Positions 17,145 to 34,832 of a stretch of 64,000 nucleotides of DNA are shown here, in pieces. The stretch's first letter is position 1; every line of letters starts with the position of its first letter. The notes beneath the pieces were generated by a model. That model made no database searches. It was not told where the DNA came from and saw only the letters and a list, made by a program, of their open reading frames with translations. The stretch is from Prostheceraeus crozeri (taxonomy: Eukaryota > Platyhelminthes > Polycladida > Euryleptidae): contig CAJQUW010009243.1 in the NCBI GenBank assembly GCA_907163375.1, forward strand, positions 260,501 through 324,500, given 5' to 3'. Made by a program: the position numbers and the translations under genes.

Positions 17145-17883
17145 AGTAGTATATAGTGTAACATCCAGCGCGACGCTTCGCTTTGCTTCGCTTCGCTTGC
17201 GCCGGATGTCACACTTTTGCGGGGTTTTTTCAAAATTTTCAAAAAATCAAAATTTCAAAAATTTAGGTAGATTTCAAATTTCACGTGGCCGAAGGCCGAA
17301 GGGCGAAAATTTAGGTAGTGACAAATTTTCAAAAAAATCAAAATTTCAAAAATTTAGGCGGTCTCAAAATATCCCGTAATCGAAAATTTAGGCGGTCTCA
17401 AAATATCACGTAATCTAAAAAATATCACGTGGTCGAAAATATCACGTAGCCGAAGGTCGAAAATGTAGGCAGATGAAAATTTAGGTAGCCCAAAAAATAT
17501 CACGTTGTCCTAATATAGCAGAAGATTGTATTCAAAATATTTATTCAAAATATTCATTTAAAAATGGAAGAAACAAAAGTGGATGAAACCGCAAGAATAT
17601 ATCCTTCGTTATCATATGAACGTAGTTCTACTTTAATGGACATTGAAAAGATAAACATCGAAAAGATGAATAAAGAAAAACATAAAGACAGAGTTAGGTA
17701 TATGAAAGATAAAGAATCTCAATTATTATTAAGATTAGAGCATTATAAAAAATTAAGAAAGAGATGGAGTAAAGTTAAGAATGTAACACAAGGAATTGGC
17801 ATATTCTTAACAATAAGTTTAGGTGCTTTAACAATTGTTATATCTTCAGGTGTTTTAGTAATTCCAGTAGTTGCTACAGCTTT
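17145..17883. repeat. Left terminal inverted repeat of Polinton
   Basis: It is inverted against 34041-34832. Near the tip is a run of alternating CTTCG units (17173-17200). Inward is an array of AATTTAGGCGGTCTCAAAAT and AATATCACGT units (17250-17510). The repeat continues through the first 110 or so codons of the first gene and stops at GCTACAGCTTT. The two copies differ by scattered substitutions and by about 50 bp of indels. Confidence 0.95.
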
Positions 17884-18259
17884 AACAGGTACGGGTGTTT
17901 TTGCAACTTCACTTGTTACAATGTCAGATAAATCTTTAATAACTAAGAAACGAAAATCATTAAAAACTAAAGATTTACATATTAAAGAAGTCTATGACAA
18001 ATTGCATTACTACTTTCAAAGAGTATGTGATGATAATGTTATTACGTTAGATGAGATTGAAAAATTTGATCAAATAGCTAATGAAGTAAATCAAATATCA
18101 TTTCAATTACAGTCAGAAAAAGTTGATGATAAAAATACAAAGGATGGCAAAATTTCGAGTGATGGTAAAATTTCTAATGAAGAAAATGATAAAAATTTTT
18201 CAGAAGAGCTAAAAACTTTAAGCGAAAACTTAAGCAAAACTTTATTAAACAAAACTTAA
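17564..18259 (+). CDS. Polinton protein with hydrophobic hairpin, unknown function
   Basis: A 231-residue open frame starting at ATG 17564, directly after the A-rich motif TTTAAAA. The N-terminal half is highly charged (KERK-rich, about residues 27-75). Two adjacent hydrophobic segments follow (about residues 83-125, rich in I, V, G, T), suggesting a membrane hairpin. The tail is acidic and lysine-rich with coiled-coil character. The first 110 or so codons lie in the TIR, so a truncated copy exists at the right end. I do not recognise a family with known function; a membrane or virion-associated role is inference. It is intact and precedes the capsid/packaging block. Confidence 0.7.
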   Translation: MEETKVDETARIYPSLSYERSSTLMDIEKINIEKMNKEKHKDRVRYMKDKESQLLLRLEHYKKLRKRWSKVKNVTQGIGIFLTISLGALTIVISSGVLVIPVVATALTGTGVFATSLVTMSDKSLITKKRKSLKTKDLHIKEVYDKLHYYFQRVCDDNVITLDEIEKFDQIANEVNQISFQLQSEKVDDKNTKDGKISSDGKISNEENDKNFSEELKTLSENLSKTLLNKT

Positions 18260-18380
18260 AACGAGAAGCCTTTAAACGAAAAGATGTCAGACAACAAAGC
18301 AATAAAAAAATAATTTGTTCAGTAAAATGTTTTTGCTGTATTCCAATGTTACCACAAAATTGAAATATTATATTTTAAAA

Positions 18381-19192
18381 ATGGATAAAATTAGAGCTGA
18401 TAATTTTAAAAGAATAAAACAATTAGAAGAGTTAATAAAACAAAGAAATATTATGAAAGAAAATCATCTTCAACATAGAATGATAAAAGCTGGTATTCAA
18501 TCTGATATGTTTGAAAAAATGCGGCAAACCGAGCAAGTAAAAACTGATTTTGAAAAAACTATGAAACCATTTAAAACTCTTGAAAAAGAAAGTACAAATA
18601 ATGATAAACAAATTGATATAACAGATCAAGAGCACAAAACTATATTAGATGACTATGGATTACTAGAATCAAACATTGATAAGAAATTACCAAAATCTAT
18701 GCAATTTGAACATTCTATTTCATTTATAGATGGAAAAACAATACCTAGATTTTATCTCGGACAAAAAGAAATATTTCCACAACCTTTTCGAGGTTTAATT
18801 TTTTCACCAGAAAATCTCCTTTTAATTTAGATAGAAATTTTGTTTATCTTTTAAGAGGAGCAGATTTAAATAATTATGCGTTAGAAGATCTCATAAAATA
18901 TAAAGCTATGTTAGATAGAGTTGGTGCACTAAAATCTCTTAGACGTTATAAACAATTAGAAAATTTATTATCAACGGGAGTTAAAGTAGGAAAAGGTTTT
19001 AAAACAGAAACAACTGTTTTTTTACCAGATGATCCACAAGAATTACTAAATAGATTAAATATTTTAATATCGGCAATAAAAGAAGGACATAATTCTAGTT
19101 TCAATGAAATTCATGCTATATTGAAAAGACTGTTAGAAAAGAAGATTCTAAATGAAGAGGATTATAAAAGTATAACGAACCGAATGTTCTAG
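18381..19192 (+). pseudogene. Polinton protein of unknown function, frameshifted
   Basis: The start is ATG 18381, preceded by ATATTTTAAAA as for other genes of the element. The first frame runs to a stop near 18828. The second, in another frame, continues from about 18830 to a TAG at 19190, and together they would be about 270 residues. The N-terminus is a charged coiled coil (IKQLEELIKQRNIMK). The middle holds a proline-containing block (FYLGQKEIFPQPFRG), and the C-terminus a helical region (DPQELLNRLNILISAIKEG). The position between the hydrophobic protein and the penton-like gene recurs in elements I recall, but no function is known. The single shift lies just after an A/T-rich stretch. 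Confidence 0.6.
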
Positions 19193-19206
19193 GGCTTCGC
19201 CCGTAG
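19188..19206. repeat. GC-rich hairpin at gene end
   Basis: GGGC-TTC-GCCC (19192-19202), a 4-bp stem with a 3-nt loop, sits directly at the stop codon of the preceding gene. It is a member of the hairpin family described under findings. Confidence 0.8.
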
Positions 19207-19271
19207 CTGAAATATGTTGTTGTTTTCAATTTTTTTTATAAAAGACATTTATTCAAAATTTTAACTAAAAA

Positions 19272-20060
19272 ATGTGTTCAGCAGATTTAGACAAAATTAA
19301 TAATCATTTAGAAAATTTGACAGAGATTTTGGGTTCATCAAAATTTAGTACGACGTTAAAAATTATAACAACTACTTCATCACACACTTGTAATTTAGAA
19401 CCCATTCTACATTTGGAACAAAATAAAAGTTATCAAATTGCATTGACTAGTTTCTCTACATTTAGCATTATTCAAAACGTTATCAAAGATGTGAATGATC
19501 AATTTAGATATTCTACTGATAAAGGCAAAACATGGAAAATATTAACTTTTCTTCCTGGTTCTTACGAAGTTGAATCAATATCAAATGAAATTAAGAGACA
19601 TTTAGGTATACCATTTAAAGATAAGAAACAATTACATTTCGAAGTTGAACCGGCAGTTAATAAATTTTCTCTTTCTTTAGACGAAAATCATCAAGTTGAT
19701 TTTAATCATGATAGATCATTGTCAAAGCTATTAGGATTTAATAAACAAACCTATAGTCAAGGTTATCATTTAGGTGAGAAGATTCCAAAAATAACTGAAA
19801 TAAATTCAATTGTTGTACATTGTGACATTATTGAAGGAGGATATATAAATGGTAAATTGTCAGATTTAATATTCAGTTTTCCAGCTTTTACTGTACCCAT
19901 TGGTTACAGATTAAATGTATTTCCCCAAACATTAATATATTTTCCTATTACAAGAAAAACTATTAACAACATTGGCATTAGAATCACTGATGAGAAAGGA
20001 CAAGAAATAAATTTTGGAGGTGAAGAGATTATGATAGATCTTTTGGTTCGAGAGGTATAA
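19272..20060 (+). CDS. Penton-like minor capsid protein
   Basis: A 262-residue intact frame with start ATG 19272 after AACTAAAAA. It is a beta-rich protein whose blocks match the Polinton/virophage-type penton: NKSYQIALTSFSTFSIIQNV near residue 55, FLPGSYEVESISNEI near 97, LLGFNKQTY near 155, and the C-terminal GYRLNVFPQTLIYFPITRKT followed by NIGIRITDEKGQEINFGGE. In this family it is a single jelly-roll protein at the five-fold vertices. It lies just upstream of the packaging ATPase, consistent with a morphogenesis block. Assignment rests on remembered family patterns. Confidence 0.7.
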   Translation: MCSADLDKINNHLENLTEILGSSKFSTTLKIITTTSSHTCNLEPILHLEQNKSYQIALTSFSTFSIIQNVIKDVNDQFRYSTDKGKTWKILTFLPGSYEVESISNEIKRHLGIPFKDKKQLHFEVEPAVNKFSLSLDENHQVDFNHDRSLSKLLGFNKQTYSQGYHLGEKIPKITEINSIVVHCDIIEGGYINGKLSDLIFSFPAFTVPIGYRLNVFPQTLIYFPITRKTINNIGIRITDEKGQEINFGGEEIMIDLLVREV

Positions 20061-20120
20061 ACTCCCGTTCGGGAGGTATAAACTCCCGTTCGGGAGGTAT
20101 AAACTCCCACGCGAAGCTAG
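20045..20120. repeat. Tandem hairpin repeat after penton-like gene
   Basis: Three tandem units of about 21 bp start at 20054 (GGTATAAACTCCCGTTCGGG); the third is partial. Each full unit contains the palindrome CTCCCGTTCGGGAG. The array begins at the stop codon of the penton-like gene (20058-20060). Confidence 0.85.
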
Positions 20121-20188
20121 AGAAGTTTAATATTCTTCTTCTTCTTTAAAAATAAATATAAAATAAAAATAAATTTTTTTATTAAAAA

Positions 20189-20955
20189 ATGAGTAAAGTA
20201 CCCCCATTAAATAAAAAAAAACTTAAATTTAATCATCATCCAAATTTATCTAATAAAGTTTTGTCAGTTATTTGCGGAAGATCAGGTTGTGGAAAAACAT
20301 ATCTATTATTTAAAATTTTCACGACACCAAATTTTTTGGATTATAACAATCTTATAATTTATACAACAATAGCAGAACAACCCGTCTATCAATTTTTAAA
20401 ATATGGATTTGAAAATAATCTTAAAAAACAGCAATTGCTTCATTATTCAAAGAATATGAAAAATCTGAAGATGAAGAAGAAATAAGTTCGCGGTGTGAAG
20501 AAGCAGCAAAAAATAATCAGTTAGTAGAAACCAATAAAAATAAGCATATAAAGATACAATTAATAGATGATAGTGGTAATATGCAAGATCCTAGTAAACT
20601 AGATAAAACAATGAAACATTGTGTAATTTTTGATGATTGTGTTAATGACAGAAATCAGTCAGTTCAGAGAAATTATTTCACAAGAGGTAGACATAATAAC
20701 TGTAGTGTATTTTATTTAACACAAAGTATGTATTAATTAGACGGAAGTGTTATTAGAAAGAATGCAAATATATTTATACTATTTGAAATAAATGCAAGAA
20801 ACTTAAGTGATTTGTTAAGAGATTTATGTGTAAGAAATAAAGATGAATTTAAACAATCGTGTAACAATGCTTGGTCAAAAGATTATGGATTTATCACAAT
20901 TAATATTGATAAAAAAATTCATGATAGAGTTATCGAACAATTGTTCTCTGACTGA
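20189..20955 (+). pseudogene. FtsK/HerA-like DNA-packaging ATPase, frameshifted and with a stop
   Basis: The start is ATG 20189 after TTTTTTTATTAAAAA. The first frame (to 20485) contains the Walker A loop CGRSGCGKT. Around 20430, in an A-rich run, reading shifts to a second frame carrying the Walker B segment HCVIFDDC and the block YFTRGRHNNCSVFYLTQSMY. A TAA at 20734-20736 interrupts this frame. It resumes (SVIRKNANIFILFEINARNL) and ends at TGA 20953-20955. The order P-loop, Walker B, RGRHxN...Q matches the A32-like packaging ATPases of Polintons. With one shift and one stop it cannot make a full protein unless the lesions are sequencing errors. Confidence 0.85.
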
Positions 20956-23600
20956 AAGTCGATAGAACATTTGTTTGCCGAGTGATAAAAATATACAAAT
21001 ATAGTGATATAATATTTTATTTTTTTATTTTATATATATATCAAATTTGTCTATCTTAGAAATTAGAAAATTAAAAAGGTGAAGTAGTTATTCCATCAGG
21101 TAAAATTTTTCTTTTATCATTAAATGGATCTAATGCTAATTTATGTTCTTCTTTTAAATACATTTTATGTTTCTTTGAATTAAGTCTATAATTACATGCT
21201 GTTTTTATTTCATTATTAAATAATACATTTTTATAATCTTGAAGTGTTATTTGATTAGCCACTGATGCCTTTGAAATTCCTTTTAATGTTTTATGTGTTT
21301 TAATATTATTAGTTGTATCATAACAGTAACATTTAGATTTTAAAAATATAGCTTCTGTTATGAAATCTTCATTTCCTTCTTTTACAATTCATCTTTTACT
21401 TTACATAAATCAGAAGGATGAATGATATCTTTTATTTTATCTATTTCTTTAACAAGTGTAGAATTATACGGTATTATTAATTCTAAGAAAACAGAATCGG
21501 TATCTGTAAAGTGTAATTTATAGTTTTTGCCATAAGCAGGTGCTAAATAATCATATATAAATCTATACATAAATAGTTTAGCTAATTCTAATATAGTGAA
21601 ACCAATAAAATTAAACTTATCATGTTTTACGCTAATTCGACGTAAATGTACAGCACATAGTTCATCACTAAATCTAGTAGTTCTTTTATATGTAGGTTTC
21701 CTTGTTAAATTTTGAAACCTATCTTTATCATAAACTATTTCAATATTTTGTCTATTACGCACATTTTCTGAAGTCTTACCATAAAATGCATTATTCATTA
21801 ATTTGAAGAACACATTTACAAAATCATCTTTATTTCTTTTAGCTATTTTACTTTTTCAATATTGAACTCTATATAATCTTTTAACCATTTAGATTTTTGA
21901 TAAAATAGTTTTCGATGTATTTTGGTGAGAATCATTCCATGTTCTAAATACCAATCTAGCATTCTTCCTTCAACAACATACTTTCCTTTATTACTTTGTG
22001 TTAACATAAGTTTTTTTGTTGGTCTGTATTTCTTAGGAATTATAGATTTTTGATAATCTGAAAAATCTTCTATATTGGGAATTTTGTTTTCGGGACAGAA
22101 AGGAAAATATTTTGTTTTATCTTTTATTTCATCAGGATATACTAAATCAACTTCATATATATAACCATGATTATAATTTCCATCATATGTTTTTTGATAA
22201 TCAAGAATATTACACCATTCCATCTCACCTGTTGGTAATTCTTGTATCATGCAAGAAGAATATAAGCTATTAAAATCATAATATAACAAATAGTTTTCTC
22301 TCATGAATTCATCAATTGCATTTTCACGTTTTACTCCTTCTCGTTTCGTTCGAAAAATTTCTAATATTTTTTTTTCTTCTGGAGATAAAGGTTTCACTAT
22401 TCCATATTCTTGTGTATTTACTTTCTTATTATAACATTTAACATATCTATTACCTAAAACTGATGAAACTCCACCTCTAATTCCAGATTCAAAAAATAAT
22501 GATTTATCATATGTATTCTCTTTATAATGTTTAAGTTTAACATTTGTATGTTTTAATCCTGCTAACCATGTTAAACATGGTGTAGAATAACAACAACATG
22601 GATCTATTCCGTAATATTCTATGCACATGTCACGAAAATTTTCAAAAAGATCAGTAAGGATTAATACATCTATCTGAAGATATTTCATTGTATAATCATA
22701 CATTGTTTTACAATTTAACTCTCTCCAATTCTTTTCAGCTTCTGCATAGTCTTCTTCAGATAATTGTGATTGTTTTAATGTTGATTTAAATTTATTTATT
22801 GGAGGAAGTTGTTTTTCTTCCATAATTTTATTCACAGAATTAAAATCAGTCTTCGACTGTGAACCACAGGTTTTATCTCCAGTTATGTACTCATACGGAA
22901 ATATGCCTTTTAAAGGTTTTAAATTATATTTATTTAATATTTTACATTGTTCAGATTTCAAAGTTTTTCCCATAACATCTAATGAATAAGGAGTAAAAAA
23001 TCTAAATGCATCTAAAATTCTAATACAACCTAATTGCATTGAAAAATATTCTTCTTCTGTTTTACATAGTACATTTATTTGTTGTTGTTGTAATTTTTCA
23101 GATGAAAATAAATCTTTAATTACTAGATGTAAATCATATTTAGAACCATTGTAGAAATATAGAGGAACAAAGTTATATTTAAATTCATTAGCATTAAGAT
23201 TACAAGAATTATGTGCTGCACCTCTATATAATCCATTTAGATGATCATGATCTTTTACCTTATCAAGATATCTACCTTTGCCATTTTTATAATTTTTTGT
23301 AAATTCTTTTCCACAGTAATAATAATTTGTTTCATTAATAAAATTTAATTTTTCTTTTTCTGTTAATGGTATCATTGGTATATTTGTTTCAAACAATTGT
23401 GAAAAATAATTTTGTAATTCTTCTACTTTCTTTGTAAACTTTTCTGAACTATCTTCACCATAGTATTGATAATATTCTGATTTAAATAATTCAGGATAAT
23501 TTGAATGAATGTACATTCCCCAACATAATGGTTTTTGTTCAAATAAATATTTTTCTTTACTTTGTTCAGCTGCACTTTTTTCATAATTATCATTTTCAGA

Positions 23601-23637
23601 ATCGGGCGAAGCCCTGGAAGACATCTCCGATGTCCAG
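23601..23637. repeat. Double hairpin inside polymerase frame
   Basis: GGGC-GAA-GCCC (23604-23614) is followed 5 nt later by GACATC-TCC-GATGTC (23620-23634). The pair is nearly identical to 25151-25188. It lies exactly where the polymerase frame switches. Confidence 0.85.
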
Positions 23638-25150
23638 TGCTTTTTGTGTCATATTAACATTATATGCTTCGAAATCACAATATATTGTAAAGGGTACTTT
23701 ATTTTTGAAATGCCATTTATTGTATTCTAAATAATCATCTTTAGGAAAAGTATTTTCAACTGCTTCGTTTTGTTGACAATTCTCCAAATGTCTATTCATT
23801 TCTTCTTTAGTTCTAAAACTTGTCATACATTGGAGACAAGGAAAATTAGCATTATCTGAAGTTTTTGTAAATATAGAAACATCTTTACACAATATAAAAT
23901 GACCCTGATAATATAATATATTCGCTTGTGCTGGTTGCTTTGTCTGTTCTAGTTTTTCAAATTTATCTTGATATATTTCATGTGTTTCATCAATTTCTGT
24001 TGTAAGATTAAATGTATTTCGATGAAAATTTTGATTTAATATTTGTAGCTGTTGTTCATATTCTTTATCATATTGTTCTTTATATTGTTGTTGACATTTT
24101 TTTAGACATTCATTTAATTCTTTATTTTCTTCATTATTTAATTCTTTATTGTCTTCATTTAATTTTTGAATCGTTTCTATCTTATTTTGATATTTATGGC
24201 CATATTCTTGTACTAATATTTTTGTTTGTTGTTGATAATCTGTTTTACATTTTTGTAAACTTTTATTTAAATTTTCTATTTTTTGTTGATATTCTAAAGA
24301 TAAAGATGAATATTTGTAATTATAATCATCATTACGTCCTTCATAATTATTATGATTAATCATTATTGGTGATAATGTTTTAACAATTTCAAATTTTTCA
24401 GTACATATTATTTTTCCTTTGTTAAAAAATATTATGATGCATGTAATTTCCTCTTTTATTGTATACTATTTCTGATTGACATAAATTTTTATTATTCAAA
24501 TAAAATTTTTTTGAATCTGAGTAAAGTGGAGTAATTTTACCAATAGAAACATAATTCACATTTAATTCAAAAACATTTACTTCTATTAAATTTTTATTCT
24601 TTTTATGAAATTTTATTAACCTATTATAATCATATGGAAATTCATCTAAACCATCCGAAAGATCAAATTCCTTTATGTATTCTTCTTTATTATAATGACT
24701 TAGTCTTTCTTTGTGATATTCTTTAGGATGTAAATGTGCTATAATACTCCACAGAAAACAATAATCATCTTCATTTTTTATGTTGATTATTTGTGGTGAA
24801 CTGAAAGGTAAAGGAACATAACTACCACCAGTATTATTTTTATATTTATCAATTACTATTTTCTTAGATAGTATTTTAACAAATCTCCAACCAGATTCAC
24901 GTAACTGGGCTTCAATTATACAATTTTCTAATTTAAGTATCATCGATTCTAATATGGGTTGTATATCATTTACATTATGAATTTCTTGTGAATTCGTAAA
25001 ATGTCCTTGTATTATTTCTTCAGGAATTCCATCAGGTCCATTTTTTGTATAAAGTACTTCTACATTCATATAACATTTGAAAGATTTCTTAAATATTTTG
25101 AAAAAGTTTTTTAATACATTATAAAAAATTTCATCGGTTTCATTATGTTC

Positions 25151-25188
25151 AACGGGCGAAGCCCTGGAAGACATCTTTGATGTCCCGT
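25151..25188. repeat. Double hairpin inside polymerase frame
   Basis: GGGC-GAA-GCCC (25154-25164) and GACATC-TTT-GATGTC (25170-25184). The reading frame passes through it, adding the peptide KMSSRASP, which recurs at the 23.6-kb copy. Confidence 0.85.
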
Positions 25189-25290
25189 GTACAGTCTGAT
25201 TAAATAAACATTTTATATTTACTAAGACTTCATCAAATTCATCTATTTCGTTAAATTCATCAGTATCATTAAATAAATATCTTTCATCGG

Positions 25291-25320
25291 GTACGGGCCT
25301 AGCCCTAGAACCTTCGGTTT
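25291..25320. repeat. Double hairpin inside polymerase frame
   Basis: GGGC-CTA-GCCC (25295-25305) followed by AACC-TTC-GGTT (25309-25319). The minus-strand frame reads through as TEGSRARP. Confidence 0.8.
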
Positions 25321-25679
25321 GTATGGACTCATCTTCAGTATTAAAAACTTTTTTATATTCCGAATGTGAATAATCATCAAACATTTTTTTAACTTTTATA
25401 TCAGTAGGCAATGTTTCTAGATAGTTTTTATAACTATTTAATTTTAATATATTTCCTTCATCAACTCGATCTACATTTTGTAAATGCAATTTACTATTTA
25501 AATGAGATTGATAACTTCTTTTTGTTTGCAACTTTTTTTACATAAGACACAATAAAACTTGGTATTTTCGATTTTTTTTATTTTTTAAAGAAAAAATTGT
25601 GTTTTAATTTTAGATATAAACGTTCTAATATCAAGGTCTTGAGAGTTATTTTATATTATTATATATTTCTCGTTCTTTA

Positions 25680-25790: not shown

Positions 25791-27151
25791 TTATTTTCAC
25801 TAAATATTGATTCTTCATCATCATAAGTTGATCCTTCATCATCATAAATTGATTCTTCATCGTCATCATAAATTACACTTTTTGGTATAGGATGCCATTC
25901 CCTGATAGGATACCATTCTCTTATTGGAATATCTAACTCTAAATTACATTTTTTATCTGATAATGATATAATAGAGAAAAATATTGGTCTTTGATCTCTT
26001 TTGGAAAATTTAATAACACCACCATAATCTGATTCATTTTTAGTTTTTATTAAAGATGATAAAATTTTAAATTGATTAGATGTAAATCCTAATTTAAATT
26101 TTGTAGACCCGACACATAGTTGTCTAACAGTATCTTTAACTATACCATCATTATTATTTTCAATTGTAAGAAAATGAAATTTAGATAAATTTTGATTATA
26201 TGTAGTATTAATATCATGTACATCAGTATGAGATATAAATTTTTCTTCACTTAAATTTTTATAATTACTCATATTTTTATAATCTTTTTTACCATTCACA
26301 CCTTTTTCAGATGCTTCAGGATCATCGTCTATGTTATCATCATCTATATTATCATCATCATTATTATTATAAGATTCTTTAAGATCGGGCAAAGCCCTAG
26401 AACCTTCGGTTCGTTTATTATGATTATGATTATGGTCATTGTTAATAGTATAAGGTGTAGTCCACGTATAAGGTGTTGTCCACATATAAAGTTTTTCTTG
26501 TTGAGCTAAACCATTTATATAAGATTTTAACAAATTAATATTTAAATTTGAATATAATCCTATATAAGTATCATCATCATATCTTTGGGGCATTTCTAAT
26601 GTTTCTTGTTTATAAATTGTATCTCTGTAATAAACTTGACATAATAATTCTTCATTATGTTTTTTACTTTCTATATGAATATTATATTGGTTTTGTTCAT
26701 CAACAAATAATCTAATTTTTTCCTTGGAAAACGATTTTAATTTTTTAACTAATTCTTTAATATTGATATAATTAATAATTTTATTTTCTATCCACTAAGT
26801 ATTACTAATCGGCAAAGCTGCTCTAATGAATCCATAAACATTATTATGACCAATGATTACCATATTTTCTTTATTCAATTCTACATACGCAACATCATTA
26901 TATTTACTTACAATCTCCATAAATTTTATAAATGGATTTCCTGGAAAAATACAATAATTAGTTTCAATAGAAGGTAAACCTTTAGTCTGTTCTCTAAATA
27001 TTTCTGCTTGTAATTCGAATAAAAGATTTACATCTATACATGTATTATTATTATTATCAAAACATTTATTATCAAATCCCGTTGATCTCGTCGAATAAGA
27101 AGAACAGGATGAAACGGGCGAATATAATTTTTTTAAATTTGGATTTTCCAT
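25748..27151 (-). pseudogene. Polinton protein of unknown function, possible clamp-like fold, with in-frame stop
   Basis: One minus-strand frame runs from ATG 27151 to TAA 25748-25750 (about 467 codons), interrupted only by TAG at 26795-26797. The N-terminal part contains GNPFIKFMEIVSKYNDVAYV followed by ELNKENMVIIGHN. The central part is low complexity (N, D-rich). A later part contains STKFKLGFTSNQFKILSSL and GVIKFSKRDQRPIFFSI. The pattern of two strand-rich segments with an acidic tail recalls PCNA/Rad9-type clamps, but no residue proves it. It lies beside and co-directional with the polymerase, which makes a replication role plausible. A hairpin pair sits inside the frame at 26387-26412. 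Confidence 0.5.
26385..26414. repeat. Double hairpin inside reading frame
   Basis: GGGC-AAA-GCCC (26387-26397) and GAACC-TTC-GGTTC (26400-26412). The minus-strand frame stays open and reads TEGSRALP, almost the same peptide as at the 25.3-kb copy. Confidence 0.85.
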
Positions 27152-27197: not shown

Positions 27198-28085
27198 ATG
27201 ATGTTACCAAATGTTGGTGGAGGTGCATTTATCCCGAATAATCGTGAATCAGAAATAGAAATAGAAAATTATATCATGAAAACTGGAGACGTTTTATCTG
27301 GTCCATTGCATCTTTCTATTCTTCCGCAACAAAATACAGAGTTAACAAATAAACAATATGTTGATACACAAATCAATGACTTACAAGAAAAATATATAAA
27401 CGATGTTTTGGTTCCACTGATGAATGAATTAAAGTTGCTTAAACTTAATGACAATTCATTAAACGAAAAATTATTAAAACTTGATAAAAAGGATAGAGAG
27501 CTAGAAGCAGATATAGCAAAACTTTTTAAAAAGATTTCAGAACAATCAAAAATTTTAATATTACTTTCTTTAAATTTAAAATCTGCTGTAATTAAAAATA
27601 AACATCAGATAAAAATGTTAAAAGAACAATTAGAAGATGAAATAGAAAAACTACCTGAAAGAATTTAAAAAAATTTAAAGCAGTTACAAACTACATTCCA
27701 AAAAAGTGTTGATGAATTAAGTTCCAAAATTACTCAACAAATGAAAAAGATGAATAGAATAATAAATGAAGTAAACTCACTTAATCAAAGAGTTGATAAA
27801 ATGAAAACTCTTAAAATCAATTTAGAAAATGAATTAAAGAAAGATTTACAAGAAAACTCTAAAGAAAATAAAGAACAGTTAGATTCTGTTAAAAGACAAT
27901 TAGATGTTCTTAAAATTAAGTTAAATGCTCTTAAAACGGCGTTGAAGATTAATCAGGAGAAAATGCAAGTTAATAGAAAAGAAATTAAAGTACATCACAC
28001 GCTGCTTGACGCAATAGATAAAGTGCAACAGTCAATTAATAAAGTTATCTCGAAGTTGTTGTCCATTCACAAACGTAAATCTTGA
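27198..28085 (+). pseudogene. Fibre-like coiled-coil protein with in-frame stop
   Basis: The frame from ATG 27198 to TGA 28083-28085 is continuous except for a TAA at 27666-27668 next to an A-run. The N-terminus has glycine-rich VGGGAFIPN, then NYIMKTGDVLSGPLHLS and NTELTNKQYVDTQINDL. The MxGxLxGPLxL...ATxKxYVD type pattern is known from phage tail fibres and from fibre-like proteins of Polintons. The remainder is long heptad-rich coiled coil (about residues 60-290), consistent with a trimeric fibre shaft. No knob domain is visible. By position, upstream of the capsid genes, it may be a vertex spike. It is broken at about residue 157. Confidence 0.6.
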
Positions 28086-28165
28086 TCGACGAAGTCTTGG
28101 GTTTCTGACCTATCGGAGCGAAGCTCCTCTGGCTTCAGCCGATCGGACCAAAGGTCCTGAGGTTA
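28086..28165. repeat. Hairpin cluster between fibre-like and next gene
   Basis: GGAGC-GAA-GCTCC (28115-28127), GGC-TTCA-GCC (28131-28140) and GGACC-AAA-GGTCC (28145-28157) follow the stop codon at 28085. They may act as a transcript 3' structure, which is inference. Confidence 0.8.
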
Positions 28166-28245
28166 TTACCTTATCATAAACGTAAATCTTAGCGCAAATA
28201 TTAACGTAAATATTTTTTCCCAAAAGTCAAATTTAATCTTAAAAA

Positions 28246-28812
28246 ATGCCTATAATTTATAAACACAATCTTAAACATTTTGCTTCAAATCAAAAAATTG
28301 CTCATGAACCATCTATCAAATCTGTTTACCATTATGACAGTGTAGAAACAATCGGAACACAAAAGTTCCTAGGCACCGCAGGTGCCGTTCAAAAAGAAGG
28401 GGATGGTATATTTTCTGGTATTGGAAGTATCGTTAACTTAATTAAAAATAATAAAGATTTGATTACATCTGCTGCTAAAGGAACAGCTGCTATAGGTAGT
28501 ACAGCTAGTGCAATATCAAATGCTGTTAAATCTCCAAACGAATTAAAACAACTAGAAGCTATTCGTAAACTTAGGAATGATTCTGAAGAACTAAAAAATT
28601 TAAAAAAAATTTCAGAGGAAACAAAAAACAAAATTGCTAACATAGCTGTGGGGAAAACCTTGAGGAGCGGAGCTCCGTCTGATAGTAAACATAAGAAGAA
28701 ATCAGGCGTAGCCATAAAACGTTCAATTGAAGAAATAAGAGGCAATGGCGTGAGCAGCAACCTTCGGTCTAACCAGCAAAGCTGTAGCGGAGCTGGTCTA
28801 GCAAAATTCTAA
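28246..28812 (+). CDS. Small Polinton protein with hydrophobic core, virion-protein candidate
   Basis: A 188-residue frame with ATG 28246 after AATCTTAAAAA. The N-terminal 50 residues are polar (HNLKHFASNQKIAHEPS). The centre reads GDGIFSGIGSIVNLIKNN, then an alanine/glycine/serine-rich stretch (GTAAIGSTASAISNAVKS), and the C-terminus is lysine/arginine-rich. Small proteins with this layout lie beside the capsid gene in adintoviruses and are compared with adenovirus core or membrane-active proteins; I assign it only by layout. Three hairpins interrupt the coding sequence in frame: GGCACC-GCA-GGTGCC (28372-28386), GGAGC-GGA-GCTCC (28664-28676) and the pair at 28774-28794. The C-terminal peptide may therefore be largely hairpin-derived. 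Confidence 0.5.
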   Translation: MPIIYKHNLKHFASNQKIAHEPSIKSVYHYDSVETIGTQKFLGTAGAVQKEGDGIFSGIGSIVNLIKNNKDLITSAAKGTAAIGSTASAISNAVKSPNELKQLEAIRKLRNDSEELKNLKKISEETKNKIANIAVGKTLRSGAPSDSKHKKKSGVAIKRSIEEIRGNGVSSNLRSNQQSCSGAGLAKF

Positions 28813-28960
28813 AATTATATTTTAGTAAGATTTTTTTTAGTAAATTATTTTTAGTAAAATTTTTTTGGTAAAATTTTTTTGGTAAAATTCTAAAATTATA
28901 TTTTAGTAAAAATTTTTTCTGGCTGTGAGAAAAACAAAAAGTCAAATTATTTTTTTAAAA
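28813..28960. repeat. A/T repeat upstream of major capsid gene
   Basis: Repeated TTTTAGTAAAATTTTTTTGG phrases (units of about 15-20 bp) precede the capsid start, and the leader ends TTTTTTTAAAA-ATG. Confidence 0.6.
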
Positions 28961-30302
28961 ATGTCTTCGCTTATCGAAAATAAATTTAGATTAGACGATC
29001 CTCCGTTCGTCAGTTACAATCAAAAAAAGAATGACTATATAAGAATTGCTATGAATCCCGGATCTTCCAGTAGAGTAAATACTGGAGGTGATTTAATTTT
29101 TGAAGTTGATAATCAGCAGAGTTATATATATTTACCTGATTCGTTTTTACATTGTGAATATTCTTTATATAGTGATGCTAATTTTACAACACCATTACCA
29201 GATACCGATAATATTGCATTAGAGAATAATTTCTTTCCAAGATTATTTACACAAATGCGTTTAGATGTTGCAACTCAAAATATAGAAACAATAAGTGATT
29301 CTCCAGGTGAAATTGATACAATGCTTAGATTTGTAACAATTGGTGAAAATAATAAAAAGTATGAAATCGAAGGTTGGTTTCCTGATACTAATGATGGTAT
29401 AATTGTTGATGATTTAACTCACGCTGGAACAGATGCCGCAGGAATTGCGAAAGATGTAGAAAATATTGCAAATGATTTAAATAAAACAAACAATAGTGCA
29501 TATAAAGAAAGACGTGAATTTAACAAGAAAAGTAAACAGACAGTTAATTGGTCATTGTCTCCATTATTCGGATATTTAGATTATGACAAAATATCGTATC
29601 AATTAAAATTTAAATTAATAATTCATCGTACAGCAAATAATGAATTAATCTTTTTTGGTAAGACTGGAAGAAAAGCATATTTAAAAATTGATAGACTTGA
29701 ATGGTGGATTAAGCATATTACTCCTAGTTTAGAGATTGAAACAGCTATTGCAAAAACTAAAAAGATTAAATACCAACAAACCAATTCCAGTAAATTTTCT
29801 AAAGCGAACTGCTAGTTCAGTAACTTTTTCCGAACAAAGATTTAACTGGAATTTTACTAGAACTGCGAATACTCCAAGATATTTATTACTAACATTTCAA
29901 AGAAATAATTCTCCAAGTTTTGATAAGAACAACAATCTTTTTCATATTAATACAATTCGAAGTTTACAAGTTTCATTAAATCAAACCCGATATCCAATTG
30001 ATCCATTAAGATTCGATGATACCAATAATCAATTTATGGAAGGATATGATTCTTATCGAAATCTTTGTATAGAATTTGGAGTTGAACCACAATTAACTCC
30101 TGGAGATTGGAGACATTTATATCCTGTTTTCTGTTTCGATTTAAGTGCACAATCTGAAGATATTATCAAGACTGGTTGTGATGTAACAATTAATATTGAA
30201 AAGAAAGATTCCACAACTTCATTGATGGCTTATGGTTTATTGCTAGAAGATGTAAAATATTCTATTGAAATTCTTAATGGAAAGATGGCTAGGATAGGCT
30301 AA
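28961..30302 (+). pseudogene. Double jelly-roll major capsid protein (hexon-like), one frameshift
   Basis: The start is set at ATG 28961 because TTTTTTTAAAA lies directly before it, as in sister genes. The first frame runs to 29815 and the second overlaps it and ends at TAA 30300-30302, about 445 residues in all. N-terminal landmarks are GGDLIFEVDNQQSYIYLPDS and SLSPLFGYLDYDKI. C-terminal landmarks are NNQFMEGYDSYRN, WRHLYPVFCFDLSAQSEDII and the closing AYGLLLEDVKYSIEILNGKM. The FDLSxQS and MxxY...YP.F.FDL patterns match capsid proteins of Polintons/adintoviruses, which form pseudo-hexameric capsomers. The frame switch is near 29770-29785, between the two jelly rolls. Confidence 0.8.
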
Positions 30303-30330
30303 AGCCCAAGACTTCGTCGATTAATTAATT

Positions 30331-30552
30331 TTTTTCATAACTAAAATAGATTAAAATTTTTTGGTAACTTAAAATTTTTTCATAACTAGAATAGATTAAA
30401 ATTTTTGATAACTTAAATTTTTTCATAACTAGAATAGATTAAAAATTCTTAACTTAAAAATTTCTCATAACTACAATAGATTAAAAATTTTCGTAACTTA
30501 AAATTTTTCATAACTACAATAGATTAAAAATTTTCGTAACTTAAAATTTTTT
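30331..30552. repeat. Tandem A/T repeat, about 5 units
   Basis: Units of about 45-58 bp containing CATAACTACAATAGATTAAA and TTCGTAACTTAAAATTTTT are repeated directly upstream of the start at 30561. The preceding gene ends with hairpin GGCT-AAA-GCC at 30297-30306. Confidence 0.85.
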
Positions 30553-30560
30553 TATTAAAA

Positions 30561-31043
30561 ATGTCGCAAGCGAAAAGTAATAATAATAAAACTGTTGAAT
30601 TAAAATTACGTAATATTGTTGACAAAAATACCCCTAAAACTATTACGATTAACAAAAAAAAGTATTACATAAGTAAACCAATGATAGAGAATATTCAATT
30701 ACAAGAAGAAAAGAATGGCGGGATTCTCCCATTAATTCCTCTAATAATAGGTGGCATAGCAGCAGCAGGAAGTGTTTTAGGTGGGACAGCTGGTATTGTC
30801 CAAGCAGTAAATAAAAATAAATCAGAGAAGGCAGCATTAGAAGAACAAAAACGTCATAAGAGAGAGTTAGGGAAAGTTGCTAGGGGTGAAGGAATAGTAG
30901 ATAATTTTATTAGTAAATTAAAATTAGTTGATGAAGGAAAACGAGTTCTTAAAAATATTCTCCACAATGTTGATGATTTAATTGAAATTAAAGAAACTAA
31001 AGATGGTTCTGGTATATATCTAAGTCCTAGTATGATTCGGTAA
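30561..31043 (+). CDS. Small virion-core protein candidate, adenovirus pX-like hydrophobic motif
   Basis: A 160-residue intact frame with ATG 30561 after TTTTTTTATTAAAA. Residues 1-50 are basic and polar. Residues 52-83 read GGILPLIPLIIGGIAAAGSV and continue into a glycine/alanine-rich stretch GGTAGIVQAVNK. A charged helix and a final GSGIYLSPSMIR follow. A GG-x-LPLI hydrophobic core with flanking basic residues is the pattern used to compare such proteins with adenovirus pX and related core proteins in adintoviruses. I see no enzymatic motif. Placement directly after the capsid gene supports a structural role. Confidence 0.5.
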   Translation: MSQAKSNNNKTVELKLRNIVDKNTPKTITINKKKYYISKPMIENIQLQEEKNGGILPLIPLIIGGIAAAGSVLGGTAGIVQAVNKNKSEKAALEEQKRHKRELGKVARGEGIVDNFISKLKLVDEGKRVLKNILHNVDDLIEIKETKDGSGIYLSPSMIR

Positions 31044-31100
31044 TAACCTCAGGACCTTTGGTCCGATCGGCTAAAGCCTCAGAACCTTTGGTTCTATTAG
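31044..31100. repeat. Hairpin cluster after gene end
   Basis: GGACC-TTT-GGTCC (31052-31064), GGC-TAAA-GCC (31069-31078) and AGAACC-TTT-GGTTCT (31081-31095) follow the stop codon at 31043. Confidence 0.85.
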
Positions 31101-31143
31101 GTAAAACATTTATTTTATCTTAATAATTTTTTTATCTTTTAAA

Positions 31144-32466
31144 ATGAATTCTACAAATTCCGAAAATTTAATTAAATTAAAAATTGCTAATTTAGATTTA
31201 TTGAATTATCTATTAAACAAAAATAAAAACTCAAATTGTCAGCATATTGGTGGTGACAAGAACAAAGTTCCATACCACTTCGGTGGTGACATACAAAAAA
31301 CATTAGAAAACTTTCCTGGATTTATTTGGAGTAAATATTCGAAAGAAAAACATCTTCCTGGTCATTCATATACCGGTCCAGGAACTCGATTAGATATAAG
31401 ACTAGATGAGAACAATAATCCGAAACCAGGTGAAGAACCAATGAATAGAGTAGATGCCGCCGCTTACAGGCATGATTTAGCTTATCGAAATCATGACCTA
31501 AGTTCTCGACATGCAGCTGATAAGAAGATGATTCAAGAATTAGATAGTATTCAGAATCCTACATTTAGAGAAAGAATTGAAAGAATGTTTGTTAAGAAAG
31601 CTTTACAAGCTAAAATATTATTCGGTCAGGGTTTAAATGAAACGACAGCAAAGCTGTCTGAGAGCAACGCTCGAACCTACGCGTCTGAAATTCACAAGGA
31701 ATATAGAAGGCCTAAATATTTATTGAAAGTAAAAGTATTTAATAAAGATGATATTTGGAGTGCTGATCTTATTCATATGCCGAATGAAGGAGGGTTTAAG
31801 TACGCATTGACCGTTATAGATTTATATACACGATACGCTTGGGTAAAGCCTTTAAAAAATAAAAGTGGTCTGTCAGTTAAATATGCGTTTGAAGAAATCT
31901 TTAAAGAAAGTAAGAGAAAGCCAAAAAAATTGTTTGTTGACAAAGGGTCGGAGTTTTATAACCGAAACGTTCAGCCACTATTTGAAACTGTTTATTCAAC
32001 TGAAAATGCAGGGAAGGCCGTAGTGATAGAAAGATTCAATCGGACGTTAAAAAATAAAATATTCAAGAAATTTACTGAGCAAAGAAATCAGAAATGGTTG
32101 AAGATATTACCAGGAGTTGTAGAAGAGTACAATAATAAAGTTCATTCTGGTATTGAAGAAACTCCAAAGAATCCTTCTGACGACCCTGATTTGATAAGAA
32201 AAAAAATATTCGAGAATAATTATTCGAATGAGAGTAATCCCAATTTGCAGAAACTTAAGTCGAAATTTAAAATTGGAGATAGAGTTAGAATATTTAAATA
32301 TAAGAATAAATTTGAAAAAGGCTTCGTCGGATACTGGACTAAAGAAATATTTGAAGTTTGTAAAATAAACCAAACTTATCCGATTACTTACGAAATCAAA
32401 GATTTAGATAATGAAGATATCAGAGGCCGTTTTTATCAAAATGAATTACAACGAACTGATTTTTAA
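31144..32466 (+). CDS. Phospholipase A2-like domain fused to retrovirus-type integrase
   Basis: A 440-residue open frame from ATG 31144. Residues about 40-155 resemble the parvovirus-type PLA2: GHSYTGPGTRLD (calcium-loop type YxGPG), then NRVDAAAYRHDLAYR with the catalytic HD pair, then AADKKMIQEL. Residues about 180-440 are an integrase: IWSADLIHMP (first D), LFVDKGSEF (second D), VVIERFNRTLKNKIF (E), and a C-terminal SH3/chromo-like block KFKIGDRVRIFKYKNKF. Spacing between the second D and the E is 29 residues, shorter than the usual 35 or so, suggesting a small deletion. The junction (31644-31672) is made of two hairpins, GACAGC-AAA-GCTGTC and GAGC-AAC-GCTC, so the fusion may be secondary. 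No HHCC zinc domain is seen. Confidence 0.8.
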   Translation: MNSTNSENLIKLKIANLDLLNYLLNKNKNSNCQHIGGDKNKVPYHFGGDIQKTLENFPGFIWSKYSKEKHLPGHSYTGPGTRLDIRLDENNNPKPGEEPMNRVDAAAYRHDLAYRNHDLSSRHAADKKMIQELDSIQNPTFRERIERMFVKKALQAKILFGQGLNETTAKLSESNARTYASEIHKEYRRPKYLLKVKVFNKDDIWSADLIHMPNEGGFKYALTVIDLYTRYAWVKPLKNKSGLSVKYAFEEIFKESKRKPKKLFVDKGSEFYNRNVQPLFETVYSTENAGKAVVIERFNRTLKNKIFKKFTEQRNQKWLKILPGVVEEYNNKVHSGIEETPKNPSDDPDLIRKKIFENNYSNESNPNLQKLKSKFKIGDRVRIFKYKNKFEKGFVGYWTKEIFEVCKINQTYPITYEIKDLDNEDIRGRFYQNELQRTDF

Positions 32467-32479
32467 TTATCATTATTAA

Positions 32480-32535
32480 CGTTTCGGGAATGAAATTCCC
32501 TTGTTAGGCGTAGCGATAGAACCTACGGTTCGTTC
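32480..32535. repeat. Hairpins between convergent genes
   Basis: GGGAAT-GAA-ATTCCC (32486-32500) and GAACC-TAC-GGTTC (32519-32531) lie between the convergent stops of the integrase and protease genes. The second overlaps the last codons of the protease. A bidirectional transcript-end role is possible. Confidence 0.8.
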
Positions 32536-32969
32536 AATTCTAACATAATATCAAGAAATGGTACTCCTTTTTGTAATTTAAATAAAACATAAAGACATAA
32601 TTGACCACAGTATGTAGTTCCCGGTTTTTGAATTTGAAATGTATTATAAATTCCATTTGCAAGTATTTCTCTTACTTCATTCGTAGGTGGAAGTCCGTAT
32701 GAGTCAAAATAATAATCATCTCCGTTTTTACTAAAGATACCTGCTGACCAATGTACGCCTTTTTGGTCTGAAGTGTGAAGATTCGTTATGAAATTTACAG
32801 ATGAAACTTTGTTCCGGGAACTGAAGGTTCCTGTTGGCTTATTTTTGATCAATTGTAATTCCACTCTCATTAGAACATGAAAATTCTTTATTACTAATTG
32901 ATTTGCGATCTTCTTTAGGTCGAAATTTGTCGTTCCATATAATTTAAAAAACTCGATCAGGTCAGTCAT
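32523..32969 (-). CDS. Adenovirus-type cysteine protease (Ulp1/C5-like)
   Basis: A 148-residue intact frame. I choose ATG 32969 because TTCATTTAAA lies directly before it, as in other genes here; an upstream in-frame ATG at 33011 would add 14 residues. Catalytic landmarks are in order: histidine in GVHWSAGIF, acidic residue in YYFDSYGLPP, and cysteine in TTYCGQLCLYVLF. The N-terminus contains NFHVLMRVELQLIKNKPTGT, also usual in this family. In adenoviruses and Polintons this enzyme matures capsid precursors. Length fits other Polinton proteases. All catalytic positions look intact. Confidence 0.9.
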   Translation of the reverse strand: MTDLIEFFKLYGTTNFDLKKIANQLVIKNFHVLMRVELQLIKNKPTGTFSSRNKVSSVNFITNLHTSDQKGVHWSAGIFSKNGDDYYFDSYGLPPTNEVREILANGIYNTFQIQKPGTTYCGQLCLYVLFKLQKGVPFLDIMLELNEP

Positions 32970-32974
32970 TTTAA

Positions 32975-33185
32975 ATGAAACAAAAATCCAAATTGAAAAT
33001 GTCATTGTCACTTTTCAGTCTCCACGCAAATAAGTTGCAATAAATGTTACTACTTGTTACTTATGAAGTAGAGTCCAACATTTATATGAAAACAGAAATC
33101 CAAATTGAAAATGTCATTGTCACTTTTCAGTCTCCACGCAAATAAGTTGCAATAAATGTTATTACTTGTTACTTATGAAGTAGAA
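32975..33185. repeat. Two direct copies, 112-bp period
   Basis: About 100 bp beginning ATGAAAMARAAATCCAAATT is repeated almost exactly at 32975 and 33086, ending GTTACTTATGAAGTAGA. The array fills the spacer between the protease start and the end of the next gene, so it may be promoter duplication. Confidence 0.9.
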
Positions 33186-33187
33186 TT

Positions 33188-33880
33188 TCACGTTTGCAAG
33201 TCTTCTAATTCCTGCGTGAGTCCAGTATGTTGCGCATGTTGTTGTTCAGTTTGTTGCACATTGGGTGAATCAAATATGGATTCTGCTATTCTTTGCTGTT
33301 CCTCCTCTTTTTCACGATCAATATAATCTTCAAGATGAGCAAAATTCTTCATCACAAAGTAAATTGATAGAGAAGAATTGGCTAAGTTTGGATAGTCCTT
33401 TGATAATTTGAATAATTTGATCAGTAATGTCACATATGAACGCGAAAACTTTATTTTGTGGGTCTCATTTAACTCTTTCACGAATTTTGTGTAATTCATA
33501 TTAGACAATAACTTCAGTCGCTGAAGCACTTCTCCTTGTAAAACATAGCAGCGTAGAAGATTCCGATGTGTAATTTTCTCAAAACCAATGAGTTTATTCA
33601 ATGAAGAGATGCACGATGATGTACTTATAATATCCTTTTTCTCGAGAAATACGGGTAAATTGCTGCTGTCAACATCCTTGAATGAATCTCGGATTATTTC
33701 AAACATTTCTCTCTTTTTATCTTCTTCGTTTCCACTCGTCTTCTGTTTCTTTCTTAGTGATTCAAGAATAAATTTTGTTGATATCGTTTTGAAGAAATCC
33801 AGATGGTCTGGTGAAATAAGAGGCAAAACTTGATCCACGAAGCAACAAAATTCTCTCTCTATTTTGCTGACGGAAGACAT
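33188..33880 (-). CDS. Polinton protein of unknown function, helical
   Basis: The best start is ATG 33880 (MSSVSKIEREF), giving 230 residues; an upstream in-frame ATG at 33967 would add 29 hydrophobic residues. The protein is predicted largely helical from its composition, with a charged central part (RKKQKTSGNEEDKKREMF), then HRNLLRCYVLQGEVLQRLKL and FSRSYVTLLIKLFKLSKDYP, and a glutamine-rich tail. The LQGxxLxxLK...SxSYxxxLIxFxxL pattern recurs, as I remember it, in Maverick proteins and could be a helix-turn-helix-like domain, but I cannot name a function. It is less AT-rich than the rest of the element, which may mean later acquisition. Confidence 0.6.
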   Translation of the reverse strand: MSSVSKIEREFCCFVDQVLPLISPDHLDFFKTISTKFILESLRKKQKTSGNEEDKKREMFEIIRDSFKDVDSSNLPVFLEKKDIISTSSCISSLNKLIGFEKITHRNLLRCYVLQGEVLQRLKLLSNMNYTKFVKELNETHKIKFSRSYVTLLIKLFKLSKDYPNLANSSLSIYFVMKNFAHLEDYIDREKEEEQQRIAESIFDSPNVQQTEQQHAQHTGLTQELEDLQT

Positions 33881-34035
33881 TGCAAATGAGAACTTTGCTT
33901 CTAGCGCACACGGAACAATGACAGAAGAGAGAGAAATGAAAACAGCTGCCAGATGCTTTGACGTCATGCGGTTGTGCTGACGTGCTGGTAAGAATTAAAA
34001 CAACTTGCCTAAAGTACAACTAAAATCTAATTGTA

Positions 34036-34374
34036 TCACAAAGCTGTAGCAACAACAGGAAGTGTAAGAACGCCAGATGAAATGACAATAGTGAGAGCGC
34101 CTAAAGAAATTGTTAAACATGCTCCAACGCCTTGTGTTACATTCTTAACTTTAGTCCATCTCTTTCTTAATTTTTTATAATGCTCTAATCTTAATAATAA
34201 TTGAGATTCTTTATCTTTCATATAACGTACTCTATCTTTGTGTTTTTCTTTATTCAATTTTTCAATGTTAATCTTTTCAATGTCCATTAAAGTAGAACTA
34301 CGTTCACATGATAACGAAGGATATATTCTTGAGGTTCCTTCCACTTTTGTTTCATCCACTTTTGTTTCTTCCAT
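34036..34374 (-). pseudogene. Truncated duplicate of first Polinton gene, created by the TIR
   Basis: The 112-codon frame repeats the N-terminal part of the 17564-18259 protein with about ten changes and a short insertion after residue 9, then stops (TAA-type end) just past VATAL where the TIR ends. It retains the A-rich start context and part of the hydrophobic segment. Whether it is expressed is unknown; it is probably a by-product of the TIR boundary. Confidence 0.8.
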
Positions 34375-34832
34375 TTTAAATGAATATTTTGAATAAATAT
34401 TTTGAATACAATCTTCTGCTATATTAGGACAACGTGATATTTTTTGGGCTACCTAAATTTTCATCTGCCTACATTTTCGACCTTCGGCTACGTGATATTT
34501 TCGACCACGTGATATTTTTTAGATTACGTGATATTTTAAGACCGCCTAAATTTTCGTCCACGTGATATTTTGAGACCGCCTAAATTTTCGATTACGGGAT
34601 ATTTTGAGACCGCCTAAATTTTTGAAATTTTGATTTTTTTTGAAAATTTGTCACTACCTAAATTTTCGCCCTTCGGCCTTCGGCCACGTGAAATTTGAAA
34701 TCTACCTAAATTTTTGAAATTTTGAAAATTTTGAAAATTTTGAAAAACCCGGCAAAAGTGTGACATCCGGCGCAAGCGAAGCGAAGCAAAGCGAAGCGAA
34801 GCGTCGCGCCGGATGTCACACTATATACTACT
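34041..34832. repeat. Right terminal inverted repeat of Polinton
   Basis: Inverted against 17145-17883, and about 50 bp longer because of extra AATTTTCG/ATATCACGT units at 34470-34640. The tip contains the alternating GCGAAGCGAAGC run (34771-34803). Confidence 0.95.

Follow-up and report, generated by a model that had tools for sequence, protein, structure and literature searches.

Double-hairpin units inside a Polinton of the flatworm Prostheceraeus crozeri: probable copies of a miniature mobile element

The window analysed here is a stretch of 64,000 nucleotides (nt) from the polyclad flatworm Prostheceraeus crozeri (GenBank assembly GCA_907163375.1, contig CAJQUW010009243.1, positions 260,501 to 324,500 of the forward strand), and all positions given below count from its first letter. 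It contains a Polinton dotted with small GC-rich hairpins, many of which form units, each made of two hairpins and about 28 nt long. These hairpins are a real family, far above chance, and they probably represent copies of a miniature mobile element, about 28 nt in length, whose home is Polintons of this family.

The hexamer CATGTA stands at 17139-17144 and again at 34833-34838 (sequence read directly), the Polinton starts with AGTAGTATATAGTGT and finishes with its inverse, and its terminal inverted repeats are about 740-790 bp long. Polintons, or Mavericks, make a target duplication of 6 bp; here this duplication and the long terminal inverted repeats are both present, as is the integrase of the group, an rve domain (PF00665, E = 6.2e-11) in the open reading frame (ORF) 31144-32463. 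An earlier sequence-only reading, made from the letters of the window, had placed it at 17173..34803; the limits are slightly wider. The Polinton, its terminal repeats and the units of the window are as follows (coordinates, strand, description).

17145..34832, no strand: Polinton with the units, 17,688 bp, placed by sequence reading, inverted repeats and the rve domain
17145..17883, plus: left terminal inverted repeat, with a short mini-hairpin inside at 17287-17297
34040..34832, minus: right terminal inverted repeat, placed by inverted-repeat search
19176..19203, minus: 28-nt double-hairpin unit that gives the upstream frame its stop codon (by eye)
20059..20109, plus: tandem array of a 21-nt repeat, variable in copy number, that has CTCCC-gttc-GGGAG hairpins and lies at a stop codon
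23603..23639, plus: 37-nt double-hairpin unit in the polymerase reading region
25153..25189, plus: 37-nt double-hairpin unit inside ORF 24425-25531 (minus strand)
25294..25321, plus: 28-nt double-hairpin unit inside the same ORF, with GTA...GTA flanks
26386..26413, plus: 28-nt double-hairpin unit inside ORF 25751-26593 (minus strand)
28083..28178, minus: array read as three double-hairpin units, AT-joined, after gene 27741-28085
28353..28387, plus: double-hairpin unit, net 36 nt, inside gene 28246-28812
28650..28677, plus: unit, net 27 nt, inside gene 28246-28812
28703..28724, plus: shortened unit, net 21 nt, inside gene 28246-28812 (covariance model R1: 13.1 bits, E 0.21)
28749..28796, plus: composite insert, net 48 nt, ahead of the stop codon of gene 28246-28812
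30296..30319, plus: short unit holding the stop codon of the capsid-like gene
31038..31095, plus: two 28-nt units, AT-joined, where gene 30561-31043 ends, with 28112-28178 as inverted partner
31255..31287, plus: double hairpin, net 33 or 36 nt between copies, inside ORF 31144-32463
31643..31673, plus: 31-nt double-hairpin unit in the linker between the phospholipase A2-like and integrase domains
32485..32532, plus: hairpin and 28-nt unit, after gene 31144-32463

Under a strict rule (perfect stem of at least 4 bp, loop of 3, at least 3 G/C in the stem), 28 hairpins lie in 17145-34832, against a mean of 1.9 and a maximum of 4 in 40 dinucleotide shuffles. The excess is found mainly among loops of length 3; four-nucleotide loops with stems of at least 5 bp number 3, with 1.15 expected. 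The sequence-only reading had listed 22 hairpins, of which 20 have their own perfect hairpin under this rule; the two that fail are 25309 (AACC-ttc-GGTT, too few G/C) and 28786 (a stem of 3 bp only). It had also stated that the host flanks held none. This is correct for strict 28-nt double hairpins, which number 0 there, but not for single hairpins, with 14 + 25 in 46.3 kb where about 6.8 + 13 are expected. In raw density the Polinton therefore exceeds the flanks only about twofold (15.8 against 8.4 per 10 kb), and it is the excess over expectation and the membership in a family, not raw density, that distinguish its hairpins. A looser double-hairpin scan gives 8 for the Polinton, where 0.02 are expected, and 3 for the flanks, where the expectation is 0.6. 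The 14 top window matches of the covariance model R1 are all within the Polinton; 8 of them had served to train it, and the remaining 6 score weakly (E 0.095 to 3.8). Rfam has no match in 17000-35000.

The commonest layout, of 28 nt, consists of one base (mostly C), a hairpin of 10-11 nt, a spacer of 2-3 nt, a hairpin of 13 nt and one base (mostly G), with variants that measure 31-37 nt or only about 22-25 nt. Pairing of neighbouring hairpins had been noticed beforehand and proves to be the basis of the unit. Units are found in both orientations and in tandem, often AT-joined (28083-28178, 31038-31095), and their flanks are usually A/T dinucleotides. Both strands of a tested unit fold into two hairpins, and 2 of 200 shuffles fold equally well. 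By inspection, the palindromes of a unit are its individual hairpins, and its two ends do not form an inverted repeat. Differences among the stems are paired exchanges (A-T to G-C in 3 of 8 units, C-G to G-C in 1 of 8), 97.5% of 40 stem cells are paired, and 1 of 500 shuffles attains the covariation score. Triloops of the GNA/TNC type make up 14 of 28 in the Polinton and 4 of 39 in the flanks (p = 5.5e-4, for Polinton hairpins that are related and so not independent). DNA mini-hairpins with GNA loops and at least two G-C pairs are described as extraordinarily stable (PMC4686876; this and the other papers cited by PMC number, PMC12220804 apart, are represented by excerpts of their text).

Further evidence comes from other copies of the Polinton in the same 2.05-Gb assembly (L numbers) and from homologous proteins in metagenomes (P numbers). 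Within ORF 24425-25531, the 25294 site is occupied in the window, L043 and L045 and empty in L039, L041, L044, L047, L048 and L050, while the 25153 site is empty in L048 and carries a different second hairpin in L043 and L045; 4 of the 12 stretches in this comparison were without a match. Both hairpin peptides of this ORF are absent from the aligned proteins P0122, P0123 and P0124 (identities 66, 43 and 43%). At 26386 a 54-nt segment with the unit is duplicated in L067, L073 and L074 (3 of 8 copies) and absent from L071. After 32485 the second unit (29 nt net) is missing from L053, L056 and L057, out of 7 informative copies. By contrast with such optional units, 23603 is filled in 8 of 8 aligned copies, being truncated in L061 and having another second hairpin in 2 instances, and the 31643 unit is present in 7 of 7 informative copies, which implies that both are old in this Polinton subfamily; the comparisons at 23603, 26386, 31643 and 32485 leave out the unrelated L052. 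The 23603 unit is apparently missing from P0121, a weak indication as the tail of this protein reads in another frame. P0001-P0003 have a shorter version of the linker that holds the 31643 unit in the integrase ORF, and in more remote homologues this linker varies and is at times longer.

Gene 28246-28812 shows the same pattern on a larger scale. Its four units (28353, 28650, 28703 and 28749) are all empty in L009-L038, 30 of 30 at each site; these copies were chosen with a hairpin-free homologue as query and hence demonstrate the existence of empty copies but say nothing of their frequency. Across 14 homologous proteins the hairpin peptides occur in mosaic combinations, with the 28353 peptide in three of them (P0125, P0128, P0131), the 28650 peptide in P0125, P0126 and P0129, and the 28703 peptide in P0126 and P0129. 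The C-terminal insert at the 28749 site is 6 amino acids long in P0125 and 16 in P0127, and P0134 has a different one; P0126, P0130, P0131, P0133, P0135 and P0136 end in GNG or GSG followed by (L/I)AKF, with no insert. In the window the composite insert at this site is read as a 30-nt double hairpin nested within an 18-nt insert.

Further variation is seen outside these genes. Other copies have 29-, 30- and 31-nt units at 30296, single or arrayed, and the array 28083..28178, two units of which lie at 28114-28141 and 28144-28171, differs in composition and length among copies. Units are present in other copies and not in the window at 27094, 28858, 30346, 25225 and 23587. For the 19176 unit, a 91-nt query matched across it in all scored copies (the best 40 of 1,139 candidates). 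Comparison of related Polintons, which had been proposed beforehand as the way to check for mobility, thus shows many sites at which some relatives have a unit and others lack it with clean boundaries, both within this genome and among metagenome proteins. The same positions in all relatives, an outcome that would have spoken for a fixed structure, are not seen except at 23603 and 31643, filled in every aligned copy; nor is equal density in the flanks, as the 28-nt unit is absent from those of the window. The suggestion of a miniature mobile element that accompanied this proposal gains support accordingly.

The length of the inserts depends on where they lie. It is a multiple of 3 in 14 of 14 coding events and in 4 of 16 non-coding ones (Fisher p = 2.2e-5); with one event counted per site the figures are 12 of 12 and 2 of 12, and with two 30-nt terminal-repeat sites added to the non-coding group this becomes 6 of 18 (p = 1.1e-4). 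The events were listed by hand, and several events at a site are only partly independent of one another. Left out of the tally are shifted duplicates (27109, 28119, 28860), a tandem duplication (27003) and the coding inserts 26901 and 27079; at 28860, 27003, 26901 and 27079 all are multiples of 3 where coding. Therefore, insertions were filtered while the genes of the carrier were in use. A unit of 28 nt plus a 2-bp duplication gives 30 nt and is frame-neutral.

Short duplications of the target accompany the cleanest insertions. The clearest case is TTACAATTTTCATTGC when empty against TTACAAT-[28 nt]-ATTTTCATTGC when occupied, seen in a sister subfamily at a sub-repeat of its terminal-repeat region, where 51 of 51 instances read AT...AT; a second unit type, at CACAAATTTGGGCG, likewise has an AT duplication at a terminal-repeat sub-repeat. 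At 25294 the occupied form is GTA-unit-GTA and the empty form a single GTA (ATA in L039). Measured as the distance over which an insert can slide, for which random placement would give 3 or more in 5% of cases, duplications of at least 3 are found at 10 of 16 sites for the best pair per site (hand tally, overlapping rows merged, the tandem duplication at 27003 left out). The left flanking dinucleotide is all A/T in 24 of 24 strict contexts, one of which is a chance palindrome. A uniform 3-bp duplication, first taken from the GTA at 25294, was dropped, as the terminal-repeat sub-repeats show AT and a 28-nt core. The target duplication is 2-3 bp (AT, GTA) at the cleanest sites, and no fixed length is claimed.

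With the loops left free, one unit type gives 2,579 + 2,698 = 5,277 matches in the 2.05-Gb assembly, and the reversed control gives 0. Ninety loci were sampled from 100 places listed among these matches. Of these, 64 match the window Polinton (25 of 30 over at least 150 nt, 39 of 60 with the unit masked) and the other 26 (5 + 21) match only the terminal-repeat type of the sister subfamily, so that all 90 of the 90 sampled loci are confined to Polinton or Polinton-terminal-repeat sequence. Clustering of 95 unit instances from 88 loci (L093 and L094, at a contig end, are left out) yields six site clusters, two of which hold 51 and 26 instances. On the Polinton itself, a 144-amino-acid protein has 9,010 first-look candidates in the assembly, and 136 of the best 150 lack an internal stop (hand count). 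The few internal stops among these best-scored copies suggest a recent amplification of the Polinton.

Apart from the integrase ORF, ORFs of the window copy are broken, the polymerase region being split over several of them. ORFs 21846-23624, 23599-24363 and 24425-25531 are without a Pfam match at E <= 0.01, and motifs in them were recognised by eye only. A DJR-like major capsid domain is matched weakly (E = 0.001), its 18.8 bits falling below the cut-off of 27. In ORF 31144-32463 a phospholipase A2-like domain (PF08398) is fused ahead of the rve integrase, and both domains occur in 99 of 120 listed homologues (hand count); the integrase ORF has no match among phage records. No relatives were found in IMG/VR by protein scans with the integrase, gene 28246-28812 and the capsid-like ORF or by a motif scan.

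Several other length changes lie within the Polinton. At the tandem repeats 20059-20109, L004 and L006 are 42 nt shorter and L007 is 21 nt longer (L002, L005 and L008 are left out of this comparison). In the sister subfamily (L009-L038) the equivalent of 27079-27110 carries GC-rich inserts of 15 to 90 nt, all multiples of 3; the main one, of 33 nt, duplicates ACT and in 10 of 12 copies is situated within an open frame of at least 100 amino acids. There are also a 112-bp tandem duplication, 90% identical, at 32967-33190 and a 43-bp AT-rich tandem array at 30322-30575, and in L041 a few hundred nucleotides of unrelated DNA are inserted near window position 25265, in the polymerase region. A reading-frame change near 23.6 kb had been considered as an effect of the unit there; this was rejected, since other copies have the unit without the change. 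The host flanks hold a second rve ORF at 14767-15210, a MULE-like transposase with a FLYWCH finger at 39482-40828, a DUF4817/DDE_3 transposase at 42202-43263 and a flavin-monooxygenase-like ORF at 53067-53732.

We consider the units likely to be mobile. Because they stay in their carrier, movement during its protein-primed, strand-displacing replication is the favoured route, and a replication-linked single-strand mechanism is put forward here with considerable reserve. In such a model the unit would move while the Polinton replicates: protein-primed strand displacement would expose single strands, on which the unit could fold into its very stable mini-hairpins, and a structure-specific nuclease or the polymerase would copy or release the folded unit. 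The endonuclease VII-like domain of the polymerase ORF, or host resolvases, are candidate hairpin cutters. A released unit joined into a break staggered by 2-3 nt would leave the short duplication, and precise loss is likely too, with the hairpin being skipped between flanking repeats. Selection would then purge copies that break frames or hit conserved genes, so that survivors would be found in linkers, variable tails and intergenic places. Alternative routes would be an RNA route, as suggested for the Allomyces elements discussed below, or help from some transposase.

A number of observations weigh against mobility in this form. The endonuclease VII-like domain, a candidate hairpin cutter, is a weak match (PHROG E = 7.8e-4). 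At 25294 the presence of the unit disagrees with the local tree, which means that recombination, repeated gain or precise loss must be involved. The differing second hairpins at 25153 and 23603 are not predicted by simple transposition. The duplication varies: several sites have 0-2 bp, as do most pairs at 28858 and 30296, where the best pairs reach 5-6, and flanking dinucleotides are identical in 12 of the 24 strict contexts. Pairs changed on both sides of a stem number 2, a value reached by 45 of 500 shuffles, and hairpin-templated repair could likewise produce paired stem changes. Finally, 77 of the 95 instances of the counted unit lie in two shared sites; amplification of the Polinton, not movement of the unit, has thus multiplied most copies.

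Some of these points are what would be expected if template switching and hairpin-templated repair made and altered the units while recombination and gene conversion spread them, with no true transposition. Tandem arrays, exchanged second hairpins, the 54-nt segment duplicated together with its unit in 3 of 8 copies and the tree conflict at 25294 all fit this explanation, which we nevertheless consider unlikely. Conversion between copies shifts alleles at one site and does not carry units to new sites, whereas one unit is found at no fewer than six unrelated sites, in both orientations and, at the cleanest of them, with a short target duplication when compared with empty sites. Chance palindromes, base composition or assembly artefacts would have to be considered as well, given that hairpins are hard to sequence and that an AT-rich carrier makes isolated GC palindromes conspicuous. 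The probability of this is negligible: the counts in shuffled sequence and for the reversed pattern refute chance as the main explanation, and the alleles are shared by many contigs and by independent metagenome proteins.

A role as cis-acting signals, for example at transcript 3' ends, as in the hairpin rule of mimiviruses and marseilleviruses, or in replication, draws on the position of some units. The sequence-only reading had observed that hairpins lie just after stop codons and also inside frames, and both hold: stop codons are overlapped or trailed by units at 19176, 28083, 30296, 31038 and 32485 (by eye). Noumeavirus shows an enrichment of palindromes behind stop codons, and for one of its mRNAs polyadenylation within the predicted hairpin was demonstrated (PMC5413956). 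Yet many units are embedded in frames that read on through them, and near-identical copies may have or lack such units; none of the listed hairpins is close to the gene ends 18259, 20950, 24422 and 25748 (ends partly by eye), and Rfam offers no match, as stated above. A signal role, possible as a side effect, leaves the empty sites, the in-gene insertions and the opposite orientations unexplained; as the main explanation it is very improbable, and a fixed structural role was rejected in view of optional, in-gene units in two orientations.

The favoured reading, a miniature mobile element confined to its carrier, can be carried further only tentatively. On this extended proposal, which we regard as somewhat less than an even chance, the units would be nuclear mobile elements of about 28 nt and specialised Polinton parasites that spread via the single-stranded replication intermediates of the carrier; length and 2-bp duplication together would make ten codons, so that viral genes could be colonised unbroken and new peptides added. 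If so, a mobile element of near-minimal size parasitises another mobile element, and the units are a source of new linker peptides in viral proteins. The in-frame insertions show that the genes of the carrier were under selection when the units went in. With thousands of copies and many empty and occupied pairs in one genome, target choice, duplication length, loss and dependence on carrier replication become testable by comparison.

The mobile double-hairpin DNA that we found described so far belongs to organelles and to Rickettsia, while the present case is a high-copy nuclear Polinton. No description of hairpin units in Polintons was found in the open-licence PMC literature, including the excerpts of PMC5799277, PMC5413956 and PMC6431247, and in PMC12220804 the strings "hairpin" and "palindrom" each occur 0 times. 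Among the known systems, the mitochondrial GC clusters of yeast, for which merging and shuffling are described, lie mostly between genes, and GC42 is 42 nt long (PMC4478555); the units described here are carried by a Polinton of a 2-Gb assembly, are about 28 nt long, have two hairpins and in many cases lie in-frame in genes. What is shared with GC clusters and double-hairpin elements is one or two short GC-rich hairpins per unit in an AT-rich genome and presence or absence at homologous sites, but the units here are not organellar, all 90 sampled loci being Polinton-type sequence. The Allomyces double-hairpin elements and the hairpin elements of sponge mitochondria resemble them in having a pair of neighbouring hairpins as the unit, optional among close relatives, and tandem hairpins. 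The lack of flanking duplications led to the suggestion of an RNA intermediate for the Allomyces elements (Paquin et al. 2000, cited in PMC2800124, PMC2670323 and PMC7218506). The sponge elements form frame-keeping inserts in nad2 and nad5 (PMC2800124), yet they are organellar, have stems of 10-18 bp and are very AT-rich in Vaceletia (PMC2800124).

Rickettsia palindromic elements are palindromic repeats that sit in-frame in many unrelated genes (PMC10969869), much as all 14 coding events do here, but they are about 150 bp long and bacterial (PMC10969869), as opposed to net 21-48 nt with two hairpins in a eukaryotic Polinton. The palindromic repeats of Volvox organelles share loops of mostly 3-5 nt, selfish spread, nested units and nuclear copies (PMC2670323); they differ in their length of 11-79 nt, their TAAA/TTTA loops, their location outside frames and their nuclear copies, which are described as inert (PMC2670323). 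The hairpin rule of mimiviruses and marseilleviruses likewise concerns hairpins after the stop codons of a DNA virus genome, but it is a proposed signal (PMC5413956), and the units here are optional and also inside genes. Unlike a miniature inverted-repeat transposable element, the units are, by inspection, without terminal inverted repeats of the whole element, and where such an element makes a target-site duplication, 2-3 bp are seen here at the cleanest sites and not at all sites. The analogies drawn in the sequence-only reading to Rickettsia palindromic elements, GC clusters and double-hairpin elements thus hold for behaviour and fail for membership: by comparison, the units appear to work like all three without being members of those families.

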